Shown: positions 41,943 to 59,480 of the stretch, one piece after another
How the letters are laid out: each line of letters begins with the position of its first letter
Position numbering within the stretch: position 1 is the first letter of the stretch
Source of the DNA: Owenia fusiformis
Taxonomy: Eukaryota > Annelida > Polychaeta > Sabellida > Oweniidae
DNA length: 64,000 nucleotides
Direction of reading: 5' to 3'
Assembly (NCBI GenBank): GCA_903813345.2
Contig: CAIIXF020000005.1
Coordinates: 35,715,375 to 35,779,374, forward strand
The notes under the pieces: model-generated
What the model was told of the DNA's origin: nothing
The model's database searches: none
Seen by the model: the letters and a program-made list of their open reading frames with translations, nothing else
Translations under genes and position numbers: made by a program

Positions 41943-42065
41943 CTATAGGCCAGTACTGTTCATCGCAGTCAAGAGATCAGTCATATTACATGTGCAGTTG
42001 GCAGTTGGTGTTGGCATACGAAACTGAACCATCAAGACAAAGTAGGTCAGCAACATACCCACAAT
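41943..42065 (-). CDS. Gr locus last exon with TYFVLMVQF signature
   Basis: After the acceptor TTTTGTAG the - strand reads IVGMLLTYFVLMVQF and then a 25-residue tail ending in a stop. TY-five hydrophobics-QF is the hallmark of the last membrane helix of insect-type gustatory receptors. Phase 0, matching the exon at 42479-42321. The overlapping + strand open frames are shadows. Confidence 0.85.
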   Translation of the reverse strand: MVGMLLTYFVLMVQFRMPTPTANCTCNMTDLLTAMNSTGL

Positions 42066-45000
42066 CTACAAAATATGCAAACAAGAATCATCCATCCTAA
42101 ATTTGAACCACACCTACCTGATGCATAGCTGAAGATGTAAGAATTTTTCCAAGTATAAGTGTTAGACATATTATACTGATGATTTGTGGAGATGATACGT
42201 TGCTCAAAATATGCATTATTTCTAAAGAATAAGAATAAATTAGGGCTAAGGAATTGAAATTTCATAAAAACGGGTTTAAAGGAAAGAATGATCTATCTAC
42301 AAATGCTGATAACCACCTACTGTTAATATTGTTGGTTTGTTGATGATGAACATGTCAAGGGCGGTGAATCCGATGGAGGTGCCGGTAAGCTTATTCATGA
42401 ACATGTTGATCTGAAGTTGTCGCTCTCCGGAGCAGTTATTCACCCGTATGCTATAGATATCCGCAAGAGGAGCATGGGCCTGAAGACAGAAATGACAAAT
42501 ACAAATAATACATTCACTGGTGATCCACTCGATTACGCTGATTACCGAAACGGAAACATGTCGGAACATAGAAGCTACGATTTTTCTTTTTTCCTTATTT
42601 CACACCTTGTAAGCAGAATTCTCACGACATTTTCGACACAAACGTGTATCAGTAACAAATATTTAAGAAAATGTACACATTTGCGAACAAATAGTTCAGA
42701 AGACAACAGAATCGTCGATTTAATTCCTCACTTAAGTTACAGAAACGGTCTGGGTTAAAAGTGCAGATCTTAACTGTTTTTCGAAATACCATACCGTTTC
42801 TGTAACTAAAGTGAGGAATTAAATCGACGATTCTGTTGTTTTCTGAGCTATTTTTCGCAAACATGTACATTTTCTAAAACATATGATACTGATACAAGTT
42901 TGTGAGAAAAAACGTCATGGGAATTCTGCCAACAACGCGTGAAATAGGGAAAAAAGAAAAATCGTAAATTGGACGTTCCCACAATGTGTTACCGAAACGA
43001 ACTCAAAATTTGATGAATAAAATATGCACCTTTATATATGGATATTCATTCCCCTCGAAATGGTTGGCAGCCTTGACACTCCAGAAGATTGAGTGTTTTG
43101 TTTAGATTTGGATCTTTTCATTTGAATGAGATTGGGATTTATTGAAAAGGAATACATGGAATACTGTAACGATTGTATATAAACATCCCTAAGATCACAT
43201 CGATTTTTGAAAAGGCCAATATCCTTTATCACACTACCCTACCACGTGACCACGTTTAAAAGGGAAACAAGGTACAGTTAAGTTGCAAATGGAGGACGTA
43301 ATTTCTGAACGTAAAATAAATTTTACATTTATTCCTGCTATCTAACAAAAACACCAGTTAACTGTTATTTATACTGCGTGTCATTGTGTTATATGAATAT
43401 ACGTTTTTGTATGTTATTCAACTGTTTTTTTAATCAATTGTTTTTCTAAAATCTTCAGATGAATAAAAAGTCCCAGAAATGTATCTTTACTTTGCCGTGG
43501 GGCAGAAATATTGTAAACAGTTTTTCTCTTGAAAATGGCAGCAATAATCATGTGCGAATTTTTTTAATTTAAATCCATTGTTGCAGCGACCCACCATGTG
43601 TTACGCGGTAAACGTGATACAAATATATGCCATATCCCACAATGAATATGCCATATTCACTTGCCGTGTATTCCAGATTCACCTGCGGTATATGGCATAC
43701 ACACTAACCAATGAGAACGCGATACGGAAGTACGCAATTGTCAATGACATCGATTCAACGAACGTGCTAACGTCTATAAATTATTGTTATAATGTTACAT
43801 GCAAAAACAGACTTCAAGGGAAACAATATGACGCATAAATAAACGAACCTTTTATAACCATATCAAAACCATAACATGTAATAAACGTACTTAATCAATC
43901 CAGGATTCATTTGTATAAGTACTCGAAGAGTTAACTATATATTGGTAATCTAGCGTAGTTTTACATTTAGAATCAATTCTTTCGACCAATCAAATCGAGG
44001 CTTTCTGTATCGCGTTTTCATCTGCGGTATATGGCGTTTTCTGCAGTTGAGTATGCCATATTCAACAGGAGAGTATGACATATTCCGCAGTGGGATATCT
44101 GGTATTCACTGAAATCAATGTATCGCATATTCTCTGCGGAATATGACATACCTGCGGAATATGTCATATACCGCAGGTGAGTATGGCATATTCACCTGTA
44201 TCACAAGTATCGCACAACCATGAATATATGCCATACTCCGCGTAACAGAGATCTCCAACAAGTGATAATAAATACAGTTTAAAAGTTAAAAATGATTTGC
44301 ATTTGAACGTTACATCCCATATTTGGAGCATTTTGACAAATACCCTACAAAACAAAATACAATACAATACAATACAATTTATATCGAAAGCTATCTAATA
44401 TCACACTGCGGGCGTATAGAGGTGCGCAATAAATGTTGACGTAATCAAACACTTTGTACGTTATACGTTATACGGGAATAATAAACATGCTATAGTGAGT
44501 TGCAAATATTCTCTAACGTCATTTCTAAAATAAGTTGTTTGGCATGTTACCATTTTGGGTATATTTGCAAACTTTATGGACGAATTCAAACGGGTAGGTC
44601 CACCAGAACTTATAGCGTGCTCAAAATTTTCTGGCGACCACCAATTGCAAACGGGTTTAAAACTGATTAAAGACGTATAGAAAGACGTATGAAATATAGC
44701 TATCTCACAAAACTAGTTAATGACGTTCTTCAAACGAGATGACCTACTAGACTAGGAACGTAATTGCCGTACTTCGACCCTACTCAGTGGCGTAGGAACA
44801 ATGTACGCCAAAACGCCAGTGCGTAGTGTTGAAAAGTGAGAATAAAAAAGACTTTTTAACTTTCCTATGTTCTTTAGTCATATTTTCTCATTGTTTAAAT
44901 TGTAAAAGTAATCTCGAGCACACTAGCCTAAAGAAATGTTTTGTGGATACCATATCATTATTGGTCTGTCTGGCAAATATCATTTAACAGATTGAATTCC

Positions 45001-47731
45001 CTTACCAACATGCTTTATTTCATGAAAATCGAGCCACTATTGACTGTCTTATAAATACAATTTCGCCAAATATTCGTGAATCGCGTTCTCTTCACGAATT
45101 TGAGAGGAAAGCTGTTTTTTTTTCAAAAACTACTTGATGAATACCTTTGACATTTTTTCTGCATTTTCCGTAATGCTTATGCTAACTATGGTATCATATA
45201 ATTATAATGATGAACCTCTTTAAATTTAGATGTATATTTTTTTTATTCTCCCCTACCCCAATTTTTCAATTTCACTATCGATTTATATTCCGTTGCTATG
45301 CAAAATCATAGACACGAAATTATAGTTAAGTCAACAATTATCTATTTTCTTATTAAATCACTAATTGTTATTGGTAGTACTTTTTGAAATATGGATGTTA
45401 AAGACAAAAACAACTTGAAAATGCTGATTATTCAATTACACGTTCCATTGATTTCAGTTCTAGAAAAGCGATAACCTAGTTTTTTTTCATTTGACAAATA
45501 ATAGATTCTTGTTTTATAACATTTTTTGGCATCCCCTAAGTCACGTTGACCTCGATTTGACCTTTGTGGTGGGTGTATTTATTTGTTTCATTGATCACGA
45601 ATGCGTTTCTTTATATCAATTGATCAAACTAGTTTCTTTAATCTGTACGTATTGTATCGCACGGTACACGATGGAATCCGACAATACTATATATCTTCAG
45701 ATCTTAATTCAATTATTCGAAAATGATTAAAAAATCTCTAATTGTTTTTTTGGAAATTGGTCGTCTCAATCGTTCGAGATATTAGCAAAGTGAGAATGAT
45801 TTGTGTCGAGATTTAAAAGATAGGCTTTCCAAGGTGATTTTAAATGATGAAAATCATTCGAACATTTTAAAGCACATTAAAAAGGTATCGGGGATTTAAA
45901 GCTTGCATATGAAATCGAAACGCCAACCTATACGTATGACCAATCGCCCATACAAATGCATCGCTTAAGTATTTCCGTTCACATTTAGGTTGTGAATATT
46001 GCAAGCTTGAAATCTCTGTTACCATAAAATGACGTTTTACGAGCATAATATAGGCGTTTTGATATAGAATATTGACACAATTGTTTCATATTTTTTTGGC
46101 GGGATTTTTGGCGTAGTGTTGAATTTACACCTTCCTACGCCCCTGCTACTAGAGACGCGTTAACGACGTTGTCCAATCGGCTATCAATTGCAGTACGTGT
46201 ACACACCGACATTGTGCGACCTGAACGAACTGCCAATGAGATGTACGTATTGATGACTGTTTATGAACGAAGTAGCTAATTAGTTTAGACGTAATCCCGA
46301 CCACAGTCAGATTTAGCCCCTTTTAGCCCTTTTGTAGGACTGGAAATAACGGTTGAGAATTAGTTTGGTGTGATAAGGGTGTTATGTTGTGGAGTAATGT
46401 TTCCTGGTCGCATCTGGTTTGGCTTTTACTGTTGTTCCCTGAAGATTTTGAATAAAGAAACATGTTATGAAGTGTTTCATTCTTACCTGATCGTTGACAA
46501 CTGCGCCTATGTACGAAACAACGCATGTCTGAAAGGTAACTGTACCAGCCCAGAGAAAGTTCAAAAGCACTTGGGAAAGGTGAAGATGGCTATAGATCAA
46601 GTTGTATAGAACGATACAAAACAATGGCAAGTTCGTGCAGTAGACATTTGCAATGAACAGTTTATATATACTATCAGAGCGTTCAACCAGTTTACAAATC
46701 TGTTGATGCCGGATTCTAAGTTCTTCCAAATTAGCGCTAAATATTCCATCTTCCCCAATTGCTGCACAGAAGTCATCTTGGACGAGTTTGAATTCTTGAT
46801 AGAGGAGAATACATATCATGAAATACAAACCCCCGGGCAACAAGGAAAGGTTGGAATTGAGATAATGAAAGAATATGTTCATAATTCGAAAAATCTCCGC
46901 ACCAGGCGTGTCCCTTGTGAGAGGGGCGAGTGCCTCGTCAAAATATTCTTGTAATGATGTTGGGCCATAGATTGCAATACAAACGAGAACGACGTTGAAT
47001 ACTGTGAATGCCCAACAATTCAAAAGAACATGCCGCATGATTCCTTTCACTGTTTTTTCGTAGCGTGTAATAGTGGCGTCACCGGTGATGCGGTCCCATT
47101 CGATGAACAAGTCATAGAATTTATCTTTATGGTAGCAACAGTACCACATGTTCCAGGCTTTAATTGAACATTCTAACCACCAGACAATTATGGAACATTT
47201 AAAGAACATAGTATCATCAAGATCTTTCACGTCAGTGAACGCTGAAATGAATCGTAGGAAATTGAACGTTACCACTAAAGCCAAAACTAGACTGTAGATC
47301 TGCATTTTCGTAAACTTGTTCTTAATGTTGCCATTAGCGTCCTTTTTAAACCGTTTAGTGTAAAATATTCCAGCAACATGCAGAGAGAACATGAGAGGTC
47401 GAAGAAGTTTATAGATTCGGGTATCTTGTATCTGCCTATAATCACCATCCATTTTAGATGTGACATTTGCGAAAATTTTAACTGTATTCCATCTTTTCCT
47501 GTTGGTAGGGGATACTGCAGATTTAGGTCGACCATCGGTATCTGCCGCATCACGCAAGTGATCTTTCGCACTTGACTTCCCCTCTTCTTGTATTTTCGGC
47601 TCTTCATCAAAATCCGAGACTTCATCAAGAACAACAACTGGATTTGGTTTGCTGAATCTGTTCTGAACATTTGCTTCGTTCACTAGGATGACTGTGTCAG
47701 ATACTTTGTTGTTCTTCATTTTTGAGTCCAT
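41943..47731 (-). CDS. Gustatory-receptor-like (Gr/GRL) seven-helix protein, isoform A
   Basis: Exons 47731-46487, 42479-42321 and 42065-41943 join in phase 0 to give 508 residues. The long first exon has a ~110-residue cytoplasmic N-terminus, then membrane segments (for example IYSLVLALVVTFNFLRF, CSIIVWWLECSIKAW, VLLNCWAFTVFNVVLVCIAIY, LLNFLWAGTVTFQTCVV). Exon 2 adds ERQLQINMFMNKLTGTSIGFTALDMFIINKPTILT, the usual penultimate Gr region. Exon 3 adds TYFVLMVQF. Insect Grs are ligand-gated cation channels with an inverted seven-helix topology; outside arthropods, homologues have roles other than taste. A foldback element and a hAT-like element sit in intron 1. Confidence 0.83.
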
Positions 47732-50700
47732 GTATGAATATGATTGCTGAATTATCAGTAAGACTTACGTCTCGTTAGACTCTTCTTGAGACGCTTTGAA
47801 CCACGCAGAAAATAAGGCAATGTGCAATTTACATGGATTCGCAATCTCTACTTGTTATGAAAAATTTTGATTCATTGGGTGGGATATAACACTCCAAGAC
47901 AAAAGATATATATGTCTATTGATACAAGTAAAACAATGGACAAATGGAACATCTTTTGTAAACCTTTGATTAATTATGTCGGTTATGCTTTGTAATAGTT
48001 AAGTTATAAAAGTTTTGAAGATATGCTCTATTTTCCTTTAATTGAGCAAAGTATTGTATATCGAGTTATAGAGTGAATGTACGATATGTACCCCCTGTGA
48101 GTATAATTTAGACTTTTTTGTTTATGTTGATTTTAATTCTGACCTTCAGGACTGCCAATAGATGGCGCCATGCAGCAGGTTGTTTTGATACTTCAGTTTC
48201 TTGTCCTTGAAACTGATGTAAAAGATACATCAAAACTAACAAAGATCATATTGATATTGCCAATAAAACATTTAATATTAAATTTAACAGTGAAACGTTT
48301 CATAAGAACAATACTTTTATGAATTTTGATTTTTGGTTTAACCCTTTCCCGACGTGAATATAAGAGGAAAATGTTGGCCCTGGTGACGGATAAGTAAGAG
48401 CAGTTTTTAGGGGAAAACTGAAAATTACCTATGCCCAGGGACCTATACCTTGAATTTTATCACTGAAATACATTTTTTAGTAAGGACTATCGTATTAGAA
48501 CAACTTGTCAAAATTTGGTGTAAAAATACTGAATAGAACTGGAGATATTATAATTTCATCGATGTATATAAATAAAAATTATGGTGCCAAAAGGAGCCTA
48601 TCGTCCTGAAAGGTATTTAACAGATATAAGAAAGACAAAAAACGACTAAGTTGACCATATTTGGAGCCACACCTACAATACCACACCGCACTCGATTGAT
48701 CACGAGATCTATAATGTTCCCGATAATGTTGTCATGAGTGGTGCAATGATTGTTTCTCACCGAAGAATCAATGTTTGTTTGCATGTAACATGAGATATAT
48801 TCACTTGCAATTGTTAACATCATATCGATTGTATTGATTCGAGAGACATGTGTTTTTCAGCACACGGCACTTACTTACCTGAATTAATACAAAAACAATG
48901 CGTAGGGTCAAATGGACGCATATAATCAATCACTTACGTAGTTCGCTGAACTTCATAAATATCTAATTATTATAGAGGATCCGTAAAAGTGTCAACGCTT
49001 TCAATAGAGATCTTTAGATCATTTCGACATATCATAATGATTTTGTTTTGTTTACCACCGATTTCGGTGAGCAATTCCATTTGGGTCGATGCTTTGAATC
49101 ATAGAAAACAGACCCATGTACGTATCCCTCCTCGAGGGAGCCTTTCGTTTTCAAATTTTGTAATGAATTCAACATTTAAAACAAAACGTAAGGGAGGCTG
49201 ATATAAAAATCAACACCGGTCAATTTCATAATTTCAATATAGATCATTATGTTGTGATTTTTGTATTTTTTATTAAGTTATGTATGGTATTGTAAGATGT
49301 TCTCATGATCATTCGACCAAATTCAAATCATTCATTACACACATATCCGTTTGATAAAATCCATGATACATGTATCAGTGATATCAAATCAATAGATGGC
49401 GTAACATGCGTCAGGTTGTTTTGATATTTCCATTTCTTGTCCTTAAAATCCATGATATCAGTGATATCAATTAATCAAATAGGAGGCGATAATCTTAACC
49501 AAACGATGCATGAATGAGTTCAGAATAAACTTCATTTTTAAGAATGGGCAAAACATTATGATAAACCGGTGGGGGTCGACAAGTACAACCACCCTGGCAT
49601 TCTGGATAGACACGGGATGGCACAATTATTGTAATTATTGATCTTTTTCAAGGATATTCACAATAGGATAACTTAATTAAACTCACCATGCTTCCGATTG
49701 ATTATTTGGTGATTTATTATTTCCAAAATTGATCAAATGAGCATGTCGTCTCTATTTATAGACAATGGAATCAAGTGCGTTAGAAATCTTTGGTGCATGG
49801 TTACAGTCATATCTGAAGATTCTTCATTGAAGAAGAAAACGCCCTTCACCGGTATTGTTTCAAAATCCGTACTTTGAGCTTAAACATATATTTTGGCTTG
49901 GGACATAAATTAGCACGACACGGCACCCTTTGATCTCCTCCATAAAATGGCTACCTGGTGATTTTAATAAAAGCCCAGCTTGAAATAATATATCGACGCA
50001 CACTAAATTATAATACTGAAACAATTAGAATTCTATGGAATGAATTCAACGAAAAAGCTCCTTACCGAACGGTGAGTTACCCTACCCCATTTTACTTGAT
50101 CTTCGAAATACATTTTGATAATAAATTAACGAAAAAACATTTTGTAATAACGACTAATCAACGACCTCCAAAACATTACTATTATAAAGACTAGAAAGAT
50201 TAGAAAGAATAAGGATAAATTTAAAGGCCACGTGGTAAATTGATTTGGGATGATGGGTCATCTGCTCATATTTCATAATGCCACTCTTGCCCCTGATTTA
50301 GTATACGGGAAACAATTGTAAAGCTAAAGCAATAAAGAGGAAGCAATTTTGGCCCAAATTTGTCAAATGTGAATGTGAGCCCTGCGGCCCCCTCTAGATT
50401 ATTTTTGAAAAGGTGATCCATTTTGTTATAAAGACTAGCGTTACGTCTTTATAACCAGGTGAGGACTAGCGATATAATCTCCAGTCATCATGATTTCTTA
50501 CACGGGGCCCAGCATATAATAAGCTTAATCAGGCCTTCAAGACTTCCAACAACGCTAACATCAGTTCTGACCTCGCGAACTACGTTCCTTGCACTCCAAC
50601 CACGATTCTAACATCGCTAACGTGAAATCTTTACTTGCGCATTTCCACGCTCCCGAACAAATTTCTCTACTCGCGCACAGAGATCCATGCTCGCGAACAA

Positions 50701-53076
50701 TTTGTACATAGTGCATCCGTGTATTTGGAATTCCGAGTTATATGGAGCTTGAAGATGCTGTTATCTTCAATTATTAGATATGACATGACATGAAAAACTG
50801 AAAATGTATTTCTTCTGAATTTCAAATAAAACACTTCGTTGGAATATTAACTTAAGCATAATAATACAAATAAAATTACTGCCTTTTTTCGATCTGCGGC
50901 CTCATTATCAGTTGGTCGAAAAATTATTATCAGTTGAGCGCAATCGCAGACGCAAAGCAAACGCAAAACAATAGGGACGCAAATTAGCGGACGGGAAGTT
51001 CAAATCGTCCAATTTTAAATACACACACTATCACAATTATAATTCTCTGATTGAATTCTTAGACGTATTCCAAATGAACGCGCGAACTCCTATGCAGTGT
51101 CTCGGTATAGACACATATCACTGCACGGGAGTTCGATGAACGCGTTGTTCGTTGATCATGGCCATAGGTGGACAATGTCTGCGACAATAAACTCATGGTT
51201 ACAGACTGCTAAAGCAAAGAAGCAGCTCAAAATAGAAATGTTTATTTTTAAAAGCTTTAGTACCGAATACAAAGTTGCCTATCTCGATGTACAAGTACCA
51301 CAAGTACAATGGAAAATTCATGAAAAGGATCTGGAAAGATTTGGAAATATTCTCGTTATTGACAGTATTTTTTATTTCCGTTTGAACGTTGCCGGCATCC
51401 ACACCCGGTGAATTTTTTGAGCATGCACAAAACTTTTTCCGTTTGAATAGCGTTAGATCGCGAACGGTGATAGCGGTACGGGAATGGTATAAGAACGATG
51501 CGGCCGTTAAGGACACGTTCGTAGTGCGGTGATGGGACGATGGTTGACGTTGACTCTATCAGTGACTGAAATATTTGTTCACTTGCGTTCAGAAAATCTA
51601 TAATCTTGCGTCAGAACTACGTTGAGTCAAAGTGGTAATATGCTTTTTTGGAAATATACGCGCTGCGATGCGTTCCGTGGCGTTATGCATGCGATTCTGC
51701 GTTGCGATCAACTGATAATGAAGCCTCGTGTGTGTGTTTCGCGAGCACGGATCTCTGTACGTGAGTAGAGAAACATGTTCGGAAGCGAGGAAATGGTGGT
51801 GCGCGAGTAAAGATTTCACGTTCGCGATGTTAGAATCGTGGTTAGAGTGCAAGGAACGTAGTTCGCGAGGTCAGAACTGATGTTCGCGTTGGTGGAAGTC
51901 TTGGAGGCCTGTTAATAGGTTTCTAGAATATGGAATTCAGAGCAATACAAAATTGCATGTGCCTACCTCGTTGTTCACAACAGCGCCTATATAAGATACG
52001 AGGGCTGTCTGGAAAGTCACCGTACCAGCCCAGAGTAAATTAAGCAAGATTTGAGAGATGTGTAGTCCGTTATAAATGAGATTGTACAGAACTATGCAAA
52101 ACAAGGGGATGTTCGTTGTGTAGACGTTGGCAATATAGAGTCCATATATCGAATCCGCTCTTTCCACTAACTTGCAGATTTTCTGATGACGTATTCTCAA
52201 CTCTTCCAAATCATCCGTAAATGTTCCATCATGGCCAATAGCCGAGCAAAAATCTTTATGAATGTATTTGAATTCTTGGTAAAGCAGAAAACATATCATT
52301 ACGTAGAGTCCACCAGGAAAGAGAGCATAATTTGAGTGGATACCGTGGATCACAATGTTCACAGCTCTGAAAAAATCTGCCCCCGGTGATTCACTTGTCA
52401 GTGGGGCAAGCGCAGTATCAAAGTATCGTTGTAACTCTATGGTCGCCCCATAGATGGCGTAGCTAGCACCCACTACATTTAGGACAGTAAAGGCAATACA
52501 ATTTACAATCACATGTTCCATAAGCTTCTTTGCTGGTTTTTCATACTTCTCCTGAGTTTCTGGAAGAGTATTTTTATCCCACTCTATGAAGAATGCGTGA
52601 AATTTATCTTCATTACAGCATGCAAAGTACAAATTCCATCCTTTGATAGAGCACTCTACCCACCAAACAAGAATGGAACACTTGAAAAAGAAAGTATCTC
52701 CCAAACCATCAAATTGTGCAAAAGCTGCCGCAAATCGTAAAAAATTCAGCGTGACAACAGAAGCAATGACAAAGTGGTATATTTGCATCAATGATATCTT
52801 ATTTACTCTCTCGCCATTTTTGTTCCGTTTAAATTTCCTGATGAAGAATATAGCCACCAACCTTTGGCAGATCATAAGGGGCCTCAGTAAGGCATAGAGT
52901 CTCGTCTCTGTTAGGGATTCAAACTCATTTTTGTTTTCACCCACGGGGGTCTCGCATCGTTTCTCTCCTGTATATCCAGTCTCCTCATCAGTTGCTTGGC
53001 CATCCTTCGCTTCTTCAACGTTGATAATATTTCGCACTTTGGCGGAACGTTTTCTAAACAGTTTATTCATCGGCAA
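41943..53076 (-). CDS. Gr-like protein, isoform/paralogue B (first exon 53076-51967)
   Basis: The exon at 53076-51967 (370 codons) is homologous throughout to exon 1 of isoform A: LLRPLMICQ, FFKCSILVWWVECSIKGWN, FFIEWD, NLLWAGTVTFQTALVSYIGA. It ends at the same point (VVNNE|GTAGGC, phase 0; A ends VVNDQ|GTAAGA). It lacks the TY..QF end, and I found no second set of C-terminal exons between 51966 and 47732. The simplest reading is that it splices over exon A to the shared exons at 42479-42321 and 42065-41943, giving 463 residues. The alternative is that its own 3' exons were lost. The first exon is certain as a Gr-type coding exon; the joining is inference. Confidence 0.6.
42321..42479 (-). 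CDS. Gr locus penultimate exon, possibly shared
   Basis: Flanked by CAG before 42479 and GTAGGT after 42321, with both ends in phase 0 (53 codons). Encodes AHAPLADIYSIRVNNCSGER followed by a hydrophobic re-entrant/helix segment. This is the only such exon in the window. A foldback element begins about 55 bp upstream of its acceptor, inside the polypyrimidine/branch-point neighbourhood. Confidence 0.82.
42535..43000. mobile_element. Foldback element copy 2, uninterrupted
   Basis: A ~465-bp inverted-repeat element. The inner arms (AGACAACAGAATCGTCGATT onward, about 50 bp) pair almost perfectly with GAATTAAATCGACGATTCTG onward around a ~55-bp loop. The outer arms continue with ACGATTTTTCTTTTTTCC and its complement, and GTTTCGGTAA-type ends. 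No coding frame. It provides the empty-site reference for the LINE at 24657-30604. Confidence 0.85.
43597..44240. repeat. Inverted-repeat element rich in ATATGCCATA motifs
   Basis: Ends TGTTACGCGG (about 43597) and CCGCGTAACA (about 44236). Inside are many copies of ATATGCCATA, GGTATATGGC and GCGGAATATGACATA on both strands, so that 44015-44240 is internally repetitive. No target duplication is clear. No coding frame. Confidence 0.65.
44785..46145. mobile_element. 1.36-kb element with CAG..CTG ends and CTACT duplication
   Basis: The left end is CAGTGGCGTAGGAA; the right end read inward is CAGGGGCGTAGGAA. Both ends are followed by an ACGCCAAAA motif in subterminal position. CTACT flanks it at 44780-44784 and 46146-46150. 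No transposase is recognised, so it is non-autonomous. The terminal pattern is hAT-like but the duplication is 5 bp. Confidence 0.75.
47732..50524. other. Region between Gr exons, no gene seen
   Basis: AT-rich. A ~60-bp motif (GATGGCG, then CAGGTTGTTTTGATA, then TTTCTTGTCCTT) occurs at about 48158-48217 and 49394-49446 in the same orientation. Searching the - strand here for a second Gr penultimate exon or a TY..QF end gave nothing. Confidence 0.5.
50530..51911. mobile_element. 1.38-kb element with long TIRs and TTAAT duplication
   Basis: The left end is CAGGCCTTCAAGACTTCC; the right end read inward is CAGGCCTCCAAGACTTCC. The inverted repeats extend about 170 bp at high identity (for example ATCAGTTCTGACCTCGCGAA) and resume after a ~200-bp gap in the left arm. 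TTAAT flanks at 50525-50529 and 51912-51916. It lies 55 bp downstream of the donor of Gr exon B. No transposase frame is recognised. Confidence 0.85.
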
Positions 53077-54798: not shown

Positions 54799-57700
54799 TT
54801 ACATAAATCTCCACAAAAGTTGAAGTGAAAGTATTGATAGAATGGACGGAACGATGGATGAATGTAATGCTTGCTGGCCACTGCTATATTCTCCTATAAG
54901 AACACTTCGCCAGAGGGCCACTTCGGGAGATTTGTCATCGAATGGGACGCCTAACTCTTTAGATCGCTTCATCGCCCAATCTAGTCCAAGGCTATAGTAA
55001 TCTGCAGCAGCAAGTATCGCCCATACGGCTGAAAAGAAAAATTAAAAAAACGTCATTGAACCGCGATCATCAGATAAAAAAGAAGAACTTATTGGTTATC
55101 TCAAAACCTCAAAGACTTCAAGAGTTTTGTCCAAAGTCAATTGGACAGATATGTAGAATGATGATGCTATAAAAAGCGCCCATCGTATGAAAATATATAC
55201 ATTGCAAGTGATCATTCCATGGCGCTGGATTTATTTACAATACCACGAAGCATCGCGCGCCGAACTGGCTACAAATCCAGTGCTACGGAATGATCACTTG
55301 GAAGGAGTGTGCAGCAATTATGTGATTAAATATATTGAAAACAATTACAAACGACTTGATGCAAATAAATTACTGTCCCTAAGATTTAACATTTTGGATT
55401 GGTACCTGCTCGTTTTCCCGTTCTGCAATGATAAAGTACTGGTCCTCTTTGAATGGCTTCCCTGCTGTCAGCTCTGTAGTTGTTCCATGTCTCGTTGGTA
55501 AAGCCAGTTTGGCCAACTGCATTAATATCACAGAAAAGATATAAATAATACATCAATAATCACTCAGTGCAGTGGCTAACATGGATGTAGCCAACAAAAT
55601 CTCATTTTTGTAAACTTTTATTTAGAAATCCGCTATGCCAGGTCAATGTTGAAAGAACAGAGACATATATAAAACACAAAGAATGCAATAAATGTTGGCT
55701 TTTATTTACTGAGATTCAAATGAAGTGCTGGGAGAGGAAATTTCATCTTGAAATTAGAAACATTGACCGTGAATGTCAAATCAAATCAACTAATTTTCTA
55801 AAAAAGTTAACATAAATTATCCAAAATCTAGAGAAATAAAATAGAAAGTTAGAAAGTCTGACTACTTTCTCGGGAATATTCAATGCAAGTCAGAGTAAAT
55901 AGTTCTCTTCTTCACTGAATTATACATAATTTCTCTCGGACTGTACTGAAGGACTATACCTTGCTGAGATCGAGATATCCCACATACCTGTTGGATGATG
56001 GTAGTATTTAACACCAGTGTAGAAATCTTCGAATGTCTTTCTTTCTAGTTCTTCATTGTAACCAATGTCATCTCCAAACTCCAAAAGGTTCTTCATTTCA
56101 TAATTAATGGGTGATAGTCTTGATATATATTGGTTTGAAATATTTGGATCTATTCGCGATGCCTCGAGTCTAGGCGTTGTTTGGCGTCCACCGTCCACAT
56201 AGGTCCCTGTATTGTCTTTGATGTTCAGTAACGTCACCTCTTCTTGTGTTAGTGTTCCATCTAGAGAATATATATATATTATTCAACACGATCAAACAAT
56301 TGCAAGTGATTCCAATGTTGTCTCGTTGGTAAAGCCATTTGCCCAACTACATTAATATCACAGAAAAGACGAATCAGTGCAGTGGTTAACATGGATGTGG
56401 CCAACAGAATCTCATTTTTGTAAACTTTTATTTAGAAATCCGCTATGTCAGGTCAATGTTGAAAGAACAGAGACATATATAAAACACAAAGAATGTAATT
56501 AATGTTGGCTTTTATTTAATGAGATTCAAATGAAGTGCTGGAAGAGGAATTGTAAGACTAACAAGTTAGTTGCCAACACAATGAAAACTAAAGCACTTAT
56601 CTTCAATTCTAAAAGATCATTCAAATTTGAATTTAATGACCAAACTATAGAATGTGTCAAAGAATACAAATATTTAGGTCTCATTTTCACCAACAATAAC
56701 ATTTTGAACACCAAGTACCTTAAAGAACAACCAAAAAAGGCACTTTTTAAGATAAAGCAACAATATAAGAAGTTTAATGATGTACCACCGGATGTGGCTC
56801 TTCATCTGTTTAATGCATTAGTTAGTCCTATTTTATGCTATATGCACGTGAAATATGGTATTATAAAAAGCATATGAAGGCAACTGAGTCAATTCATTTG
56901 TCTTTAAAGTCAACATTAGGTGTTAAATCACAAACTGCAAGCCCTGCTGTATATGGTGACCTTAGTCCTAGGTAGATACCCATTATCAATCAAAATTGAA
57001 TCTTACATTATAAAATACTTGAATGATTGAAAATGTTATGATATATAAGTCAATAAAAGTTTTATATATTACGGTTGATACTGAATTACTGATGGAGTGA
57101 AAGCCTTTATGTGACACGAGCATGGGCATACAGTTTAAATATCATAAGGATAGTACATGGCATCTGGGCATTATTAGTTTTTACCTGGTGCGGTTAGTCC
57201 CTTTCGAACATTGATGATTGAGCGGAAACCAGTGCTGTTTATATTGGCACCTGTGGTTGCGTAGATCTGTCCTGCCATAAAGATGTCCTTGTAGACAGGA
57301 GTCGCGTGCCAATAATGCCACCAGCCCTGACCCATGGGGATATCGGGAACAGTTACGTTGTCCGTCACGTTCCACCCTGTGACTTCAGACACAAGTTCTT
57401 TCAAAGCATTATCGCTGTAGTCAAAGCCGTGGATGGCTCCTATTTCAAACACATCATCTGGCTTGATCTTCGGTGTGAACTCAGGATCGTGTTTAGTTTT
57501 GTTGGCAAAGTAATTAAGAAGAGTAAATGTTGATGAGTATCCAACGCCGCAGTGAACAAGTGTTGGTTTGGGCATTTGGTCAGCGATGGCAGTGAACCGC
57601 TCAACGAGGCTTATGTCCTGCCAACTGTCCCCGGGCGATAACACAACAGCATAGGGCATCCCACATAAATTTTTAGCAATATACATGCACTCATCTGTCG

Positions 57701-57929
57701 TCGGGAATTCTTCAATAGCACTCGATTTTACACCGGCGGTGAAATTGAAGATCGATATGATCGACTTGAAGCCAGCTTCGTAGGTGTACTTTACTTGTCT
57801 GGCCGAGAGACGCCCAGCGGTGTAATAGTCGTCGGTGATGTGGTTAGCCCACCAGGTCTTCCGTTGGGGGAAGTTCCCCATAACCACTGTTACAAAAGCA
57901 CTTAGGCTCAATAGTTTCGTAAAAAGCAT
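54799..57929 (-). CDS. Secreted tandem DUF442/BLH-type phosphatase-like protein, GPI-tail
   Basis: Exons 57929-57185, 56260-55988, 55516-55406 and 55028-54799 join in consistent phase to 1359 nt (452 residues). A signal peptide (LLSLSAFVTVVMG) is followed by two related domains. Domain 1 starts DDYYTAGRLSARQVKYTYEA and has the loop VHCGVGYSS (C127), where the catalytic Arg is replaced by Ser132. Domain 2 starts KDIFMAGQIYATTGANINST and has LYHCRTGKRA (C370, R375), the Cys-x4-Arg loop of beta-lactamase-hydrolase-like phosphatases (PF04273). The C-terminus is hydrophobic (VPSILSILSLQLLWRFM) and ends at the stop, as in GPI-anchored proteins. The substrate is unknown. A pseudo-phosphatase domain fused to an apparently intact one, outside the cell, is unusual. 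Confidence 0.82.
55489..55742. repeat. Duplicated exon-3/intron segment, copy 1
   Basis: Contains the 5' part of exon 3 of the DUF442 gene and 225 bp of adjoining intron. It is repeated in direct orientation at 56315-56551 (shared runs include TTTGTAAACTTTTATTTAGA and GAACAGAGACATATATAAAA). Confidence 0.85.
56315..56551 (-). pseudogene. Broken duplicate of exon 3 plus flank
   Basis: Second copy of 55489-55742, placed in intron 1 of the same gene. GTCTCGTTGGTAAAGCCA is retained, but the rest of the exon (including the HCRTG codons) is absent and the acceptor CTGCATTAATATC has become CTACATTAATATC. It should be skipped by splicing. Confidence 0.72.
56552..56880 (+). pseudogene. LINE reverse transcriptase fragment (C-terminal)
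   Basis: Encodes KTKALIFNSKRSFKFEF, ECVKEYKYLGLIFTNNN and LFNALVSPILCY, the region just after the RT palm where LINE proteins carry KTK..F and YLG motifs. About 110 codons, truncated at both ends, directly adjoining the duplicated exon-3 segment. A decayed frame continues to about 56970. Distinct from the two other LINEs in the window. Confidence 0.75.
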
Positions 57930-59480
57930 GGCGTTCGTTGGTTTTTAAGTGTTTTTTGGTCCCTCTTATCTTGCTACACCTGAAATAATATTAAATTATG
58001 ATTATAATATCACAGTTTTGTGTTATGATAGCCAGTGATGTGAAAACATACCAAACCTCTTATTCAGTATATATAATTTGTTTCTGGCATGCTAGCGTAT
58101 CAAGTTGTGTTCGGAATGAATTTCGGAATGTACATGTATGTGCCAAAAGACCGCACATGCTTATTACTTTTTTGATCTGTTTGAATTTTTTTTTCATCGT
58201 GTTTCGAATATACACTCCCCGCCATAAATATGACAATCTTACGTTTTCATCGGATAACATAAAAGTCTCTCAATGCAATGTTTGCATCTTAGTTTTGTTC
58301 CCTAATTACTTCACGGTAGGGATTGTCATCACCTGACCTTCGCAGTTGATGGTGTCTGAACAAGATGTAAGATTTTCTCGATTAAGCAAGAAAAACGAAT
58401 ATTTTTCATATTTATACTTTGTTAAATGCTTCAAATCTCGCCCCACTTGTGCATACTATCTCAGTCTCTCTAATGAACCTAAATTTACTAACAGTGTTTC
58501 GAAAAATGATGGTGTCCAAACAACTTTAAAATTCTGTATGATGGTGTCTGTACAAATTTTTTTAAATACACTACTTGTATGGTAGTCCTCGTGTTTTCGT
58601 GTTTTAAGATTTTGTAAAACAATGAGTAATCCAAAAAGAAACTTCGGATTGCTAAACTCATGAAGGGGAGTGTATCTCGAGTGAACTATATGAAGGCAAT
58701 TTAAGCTTTCTGATATAAGTCCAAAGAACTAATAATGCGATGATAGATACCAGCACAAATCGATGGCATCAGGATCTTTGGTGAAAATGAATTACCCAAA
58801 CATCCACTCTCTGACCATTTGAAGCTGAGGACGGAGTATGGAAACCACGTTTTAGTTAAAAACATTTTTGTACTCAACTCATCTACTATTAGACTCTTGT
58901 CAATCTATTATGATTCAGTAATCATTGTATATGCAATAACAAACACGATATCAAAATAACACGACATACTTTCATTTATATCTGAACCTCAGATTCAGAG
59001 AGAGAAGACGAATTCGAAACCCTCTTTATTAGAAAAGCGGGATACAACTAATCATCAAAAAAGAACGAAAATCAATACAGTTAAAAAATAGTCAATTTTT
59101 TAAATCGTCAAAAAGAATATACACTTTTCCTCAAATGTTAGATCAGTATATGGAACCATGTTGTGAAATCAGGATTAAACCAATATACGAAAAGGGAAGC
59201 CAAATGTATGTCCTGAAACATCTTCGATTCCCAATGTGAAATTATTAGGAAGTTGAAGTCTTGACTCAAAATGTACAAAACCACACACTTGAATATCAAA
59301 CAAAGGTTTTACAAAAGACCAATTGTTAATTTGTTATTTTAACTAAGAACAATAAAAACATCTTACCTTGTTCGTGCTTGTTTCCAACAAATGAGTTGAC
59401 CTCTAAAATGAATACACGTTACACCCACAACACACTCAATGGACGCTTCTTAAGGAAGTATGACCCGATTATGGCCATCC
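57930..59480 (-). other. Putative 5' UTR intron and promoter side of the DUF442 gene
   Basis: An acceptor (TTATTTCAG before 57979) lies 50 bp upstream of the ATG, and a good donor (CAAG|GTAAGA after 59367) lies 1.4 kb further up. The leader may therefore be split, with a non-coding first exon ending at 59367. No upstream ATG-led gene is seen. Confidence 0.45.

Follow-up and report, generated by a model that had tools for sequence, protein, structure and literature searches.

A taste-receptor-like locus with two putative alternative first exons and a single C-terminal exon set in a presumptive annelid

Insect Gr and Or loci in which tandem long first exons are followed by shared short 3' exons are known, as set out in the available portions of three papers (PMC6080948, PMC3011837, PMC6720082), and they allow an insect to obtain several taste or odour receptors from a single locus. 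In Drosophila Gr39a, for example, alternative long N-terminal exons, for which alternative splicing was hypothesised, stand before a single set of short C-terminal exons, three in number, according to the portion of PMC3011837 available to us. The firebrat Thermobia provides a parallel among the insect ORs, where the Or15, Or24, Or27 and Or31 loci combine long first exons in tandem with a common set of four short exons; in the accessible part of PMC6080948 these models are mostly without RNA support, one is backed by a comparable locus in another species, and the authors left out a comparable first exon lying upstream of Orco because it had no RNA support. The accessible sections of the Daphnia paper describe introns, but not alternative splicing (PMC2680840). 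Mention of splicing is confined to Hox and Dscam in the Strigamia paper, again in its available portion, and no word starting with 'splic' occurs in the main texts of the Platynereis paper or of Benton and Himmel.

We describe here a taste-receptor-like gene on the minus strand of contig C5, contained in a stretch of 64 kb (the window), in which two long first exons are accompanied by one C-terminal exon set. Among the literature matches listed there is no description of the same architecture outside arthropods; an earlier report is possible, for example in Robertson 2015, reportedly the survey likeliest to contain one. That the host is not an insect, as a first-pass annotation of this DNA had proposed, is supported by the erythrocruorin-linker domain PF16915 (Eryth_link_C), which scores above the cut-off at three places on C6 and which we take to mark annelids; a genome search for the cuticle family PF00379 returned nothing, and that search's controls were likewise silent. 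Mitochondrial COX1, sought as a further marker of the animal, gave no match. A layout known in insects apparently appears here in a new phylum, with two first exons and two shared exons where Gr39a has three shared exons and the Thermobia loci have four, and with first exons that were apparently duplicated within the locus, independently of insects. What interests us most is that such first-exon tandems apparently arose twice, independently, in two loci of this genome.

Exon anatomy, family membership and a proposed mechanism

Exons A and B each run from the N terminus to a point before TM7. Exon A (window positions 46487-47731, minus strand) has 415 codons and ends at the phase-0 donor AACGATCAG/GTAAGA, the slash marking the exon boundary; exon B (51967-53070, same strand) has 368 codons counted from its ATG at 53070, and ends at the phase-0 donor AACAACGAG/GTAGGC. 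Both are GT donors occupying the same alignment position, after VVNDQ in A and VVNNE in B, and a genome comparison with exon A as the query finds B at 61% identity (E 5.5e-133). The first-pass annotation had picked out this pair, and its intact, homologous minus-strand exons with phase-0 donors stand; the start it gave for B, at 53076, is however a TTG, and the ~2.8 kb it placed between the first exons is in fact an interval of 4,235 bases (47732-51966), in which no C-terminal exon was detected. Downstream on the same strand lie a single penultimate exon (42321-42479; 53 codons, AHAPLADIYS...PTILT), which encodes the segment before TM7 and is in phase 0 at both ends (TCTTCAG/GCC ... ACA/GTAGGT), and a single last exon (41943-42065; phase 0, from TTGTAG/ATT to a TAG stop codon), which carries TM7 with the sequence TYFVLMVQF. 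Spliced to these common exons, the frames amount to 508 aa with A and 461 aa with B, and neither contains an internal stop. The locus combines homologous first exons with one C-terminal set, on one strand and in compatible phases, and it has two phase-0 introns, as does a relative on C6 described below; a further relative, on C9, has three as modelled.

The Pfam family 7tm_7 (PF08395) recognises exon A with an E-value of 1.9e-9 (37.7 bits, above the cut-off of 26.6), while exon B alone (E 1.1e-4, 22.1 bits) and the penultimate open reading frame alone (18.1 bits) fall below that cut-off; across the 498 Mb genome the same model finds seven places, which include A and do not include B. The last exon carries the TYhhhhhQF motif of TM7, in the form given in the available portions of PMC2680840 and PMC11100771. 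Modelling exon A in AlphaFold with B as the sole alignment partner gave a pLDDT of 37.1, too low for a usable fold, the best PDB profile match is to OR28 (E 0.044, a weak value), and a crude hydropathy profile gives seven peaks in A and eight in B, some of them overlapping, with the last one straddling the start of the final exon. The locus is related to the insect taste receptors, and we consider it quite probable, jointly with the alternative-first-exon reading that follows, that it is one GR-like (7TMIC) receptor gene.

With good though incomplete confidence, we propose that B and A would serve as alternative first exons, each presumably with its own promoter, spliced to one shared penultimate and last exon. 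With transcription from two separate promoters, either first exon would join the single penultimate exon through its homologous phase-0 donor, and transcripts beginning at B would skip A. The products would be two channel subunits, of 461 aa from B and 508 aa from A. They would diverge over the region equivalent to S0-S6, where an insect GR binds its ligand, and would have the stretch preceding TM7 and the S7 pore helix in common. In the BmGr9 structure, as presented in the accessible part of PMC11100771, the ligand pocket is formed by S0-S6 and the pore is lined by S7b with its TYhhhhhQF motif. By homology, A and B would cover the part before TM7, and the shared exons the segment before TM7 together with TM7 itself, so that alternative first exons would swap the sensor and keep the pore. 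Two front halves with one set of end pieces would therefore most likely give a pair of receptors whose sensors differ and whose pore is the same, and the A and B products may respond to different ligands. Such a locus would offer a compact test of the exchangeability of sensor and pore halves in these channels. It may also matter for annotation, where a gene predictor could easily report A alone and treat B as a fragment.

A second 2:1 locus and the other GR-like genes

Exon A returns 19 rows when compared with the genome, which we read as 18 first exons, the row at C10:8332854 being apparently another part of the C10 gene beside it; the comparison across loci covers this one genome. The closest relative, a gene on C6 at 24.37-24.39 Mb that was examined over 30 kb (C6:24366001-24396000), repeats the layout of the window. 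Two intact first exons, distal (C6:24369248-24370378, 377 codons) and proximal (C6:24377570-24378925, 452 codons), are followed by a single penultimate exon (C6:24380528-24380686) and a single last exon (from C6:24389394). Between the two first exons the best penultimate match scores 3.8 bits, with 142 of 200 shuffles as good, and the best last-exon match 5.3 bits, with 90 of 200 as good; a 9-residue last-exon-like match at 24386627, between the penultimate and last exons (11.0 bits, or 7.8 with the later profile), is taken for chance. In both of these loci the proximal first exon is found by the genome-wide 7tm_7 search, and the distal one (B, or the exon at C6:24369248) is missing from it.

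The other GR-like genes of this genome (C9, C1 and C10b, and the clusters on C2, C6b, C7, C10a and C10c) resemble the window locus in their homologous first exons and, where one was found, in their TM7 exon, and the phase-0 intron position after the first exon is common to the window locus, C9, C2 and C10a/b. They differ in that each first exon has a penultimate exon of its own. Setting aside the window locus and its C6 relative, such an exon was found downstream on the same strand for every one of the 14 remaining first exons, five tandem or adjacent clusters (C2, C6b, C7, C10a, C10c) among them, and it was recovered even for genes only ~21-25% identical to A; the two weakest matches, those of the C10c pair (13.9 and 12.3 bits), were accepted on a conserved VEKLNGGIGFTGWKL stretch. 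TM7-type last exons were located for eight of the 14 (C9, C1, C6b1, C6b3, both C2 and both C7). Because the C6 relative repeats the pattern and the other first exons each have their own penultimate exon, the 2:1 layout is placed in both loci of a small clade and is absent from the other groups examined.

Elsewhere on C6, a TM7 exon at 28154857-28154910 (VFGLLLSYFFLMFSF) has no GR-like first exon within the ~12 kb read upstream of it, and the sole penultimate match nearby is one of 9 residues (7.7 bits) at 28154533. This is a partial or decayed gene, and fragments do occur in the GR-like family of this genome. The window and C6 loci are 79% identical in their shared exons and 38% in their first exons. 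Excess conservation of the shared exons was considered as a test of sharing and dropped, since C9, with its single first exon, shows a similar tilt (58% vs 28%).

A C-terminal set hidden between B and A was sought with two profiles, one for the penultimate exon (30 positions) and one for the last exon, both built from GR-like C-terminal exons in this genome and run over all three reading frames of the introns on the coding strand, with 200 dinucleotide shuffles as the control. In the B-A interval the penultimate profile reached 2.6 bits at best, a score equalled or bettered by 149 of 200 shuffles, and the last-exon profile 2.2 bits (163 of 200); an earlier penultimate profile of 53 positions reached 4.6 bits. 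The penultimate profile recovered all three positive controls (47.6, 51.3 and 59.2 bits), a power that is not independent because the profile was built from those exons, and the last-exon profile recovered two of three (39.2 and 41.2 bits), missing C10c at 2.8 bits. Neither the window nor the C6 locus contains a single N base, exon B alone is without a TM7, and the sole convincing TM7 exon in the 64 kb is the common last exon. The single visible penultimate exon and single TYFVLMVQF exon reported in the first-pass annotation are borne out in this way: the profile scores of the interval lie within the shuffled controls, and a second penultimate exon, looked for between the first exons, does not appear there above shuffle level. 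The shared-C-terminus reading offered at the same time, with its splicing inferred, is well supported by the anatomy of the locus, by the 2:1 layout of the C6 sister and by the own penultimate exon of each of the 14 other first exons.

Selection on the first exons and other readings of exon B

The alignment of A with B spans 309 codons, with differing sites at proportions of 0.31, 0.19 and 0.63 for codon positions 1, 2 and 3. The dN is 0.30, and dS is not computable, the synonymous sites being saturated (NG86); branches are saturated in the IQ-TREE codon model also. Relative-rate tests with either C6 exon as the outgroup divide the unique changes evenly between A and B (21 v 21, 24 v 24), and nearly evenly between the two C6 first exons (28 v 30, 27 v 29). 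Given equal rates, a dN of 0.30 and saturated synonymous sites, B is not an old relic. Nor, given a simple neutral simulation of 300 runs, is it long dead, since the share of runs in which B acquired no stop fell from 14.7% at 0.05 changes per site to 2.3% at 0.1, and to 0 of 300 at 0.2. We take selection on both first exons to be shown, at the level of sequence.

These results bear on an account, unlikely in our view, in which B, and independently the distal C6 exon, descends from a full tandem gene whose C-terminal exons were recently lost, which would make B a young, stop-free pseudogene. The partial gene in another cluster (last exon C6:28154857), the foldback-like element immediately behind the B donor, and the lower 7tm_7 scores of the distal exons at both loci would all fit such a history. 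At the same time, B has evolved at the same rate as A and retains a usable donor at the homologous place, a stop-free B would require that the orphaning took place within ~0.1 neutral changes per site, and the same accident would be needed twice, with the proximal copy retaining the C-terminal exons on each occasion. That B belongs instead to a separate gene, whose own C-terminal exons escape detection through their divergence or small size, we judge very unlikely. Such exons are indeed short, C10c, a divergent control, escaped the last-exon profile at 2.8 bits, and last exons were located for only eight of the 14 other first exons. Nonetheless, B is 61% identical to A, and its own C-terminal exons should therefore be conspicuous; penultimate exons are detectable even in genes ~21-25% identical to A, and the B-A interval scores no higher than shuffled DNA.

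Least likely of the readings considered is that B is spliced into A, or ends within its intron, which would yield a double-length or a pore-less protein. An AG located 15 bases before the start codon of A (window 47731-47748) is in frame with the B donor, so that a B-A fusion transcript would stay open, and short open extensions follow both donors. However, only 11 of the 20 bases before that AG are pyrimidines, against 16 of 20 at the shared acceptor, and we know of no GR that has such a double-length form; a product ending in the intron would be truncated and without the pore motif. Two alternative first exons with one C-terminal set remain our preferred reading of the locus.

History of the tandem first exons and repeats of the locus

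The tree of first exons comprised 16 of the 18, the C10c pair being excluded (one frame has stops and the other ends early). Its support values are 98/98 for A with B and 99/98 for the two C6 first exons together; these four group at 93/96, and the addition of C9, the next relative and one with a single first exon, gives a group of five at 99/97. Pairings across the loci, of A or B with either C6 exon, were named for the AU tests after inspection of the tree and were rejected in four cases of four (AU p <= 2.63e-15). Quartet sites favour the within-locus pairs by 23:3:0, and the three dissenting sites all lie at one end of the 309-codon alignment, among its first 34 codons.

Since each locus keeps its own pair of first exons together in the tree, the window and C6 tandems most likely reflect separate duplications. 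Independent first-exon duplication is the simplest account and, as judged from these comparisons, the most likely; gene conversion that homogenised an older pair of first exons is a less likely one. Deep homology would call for first exons that predate the divergence of the two loci, which is not what the tree recovers, and under either history the layout does not look inherited from an ancestor shared with insects. Deep conservation and convergence had both been entertained in the first-pass annotation. The within-locus pairing, the rejection of the cross-locus pairs and the single first exon of C9 speak against deep conservation.

The old feature is an intron in phase 0, which allows such exons to be exchanged for one another. 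Three phase-0 introns common to all insect chemoreceptor lineages are described in the available part of the Daphnia paper, as is one gene with an intron just before the TYhhhhhQF exon (PMC2680840). What we see here would thus most likely represent parallel evolution on an old phase-0 intron, rather than an insect architecture inherited. We lean, with some reserve, toward a broader proposal, in which interchangeable first exons with one pore tail would have arisen at least twice, and separately from those of insects, in one annelid clade of GR-like genes, since a first exon duplicated ahead of the old phase-0 intron can be used at once; this would be a recurrent route across protostomes by which the sensor is changed and the pore is fixed. 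The occurrence of the layout twice, through separate duplications, in a presumptive annelid would suggest the old intron position, and not insect history, as its cause.

The introns of the window locus are crowded by repeats. A foldback-like element with long inverted repeats (50530-51911) occupies part of the B-A interval, starting 55 bases after the B donor. Its terminal inverted repeats consist of 112 bases that are 95% complementary and a further 58 bases at 88%, and its internal ~183 bases and its arms recur on many contigs (at least 57 pieces among the matches listed); a second full-length copy was not present among the best 40 of 813 candidates scored. A near-palindromic, MITE-like repeat of 425 bases (42559-42983) lies 79 bases upstream of the shared acceptor, and its hairpin might influence splicing. 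This repeat is present in high copy, the best 40 of 2,259 candidates all being full-length or nearly so and, apart from the window's own, 89-90% identical. Among the matches listed, those of the two elements taken together are spread over C1 to C12 and one small contig. The intron between A and the penultimate exon also holds degenerate TGAATATGCCATATTCA-like repeats, arrayed in both direct and inverted orientation (43643-44206). Elsewhere in the window, at 57174-57944, an open frame of 256 aa has a signal-like start and the string HCGVGYSS, and no Pfam match at E 0.01; our impression is that HCGVGYSS resembles a phosphatase loop.
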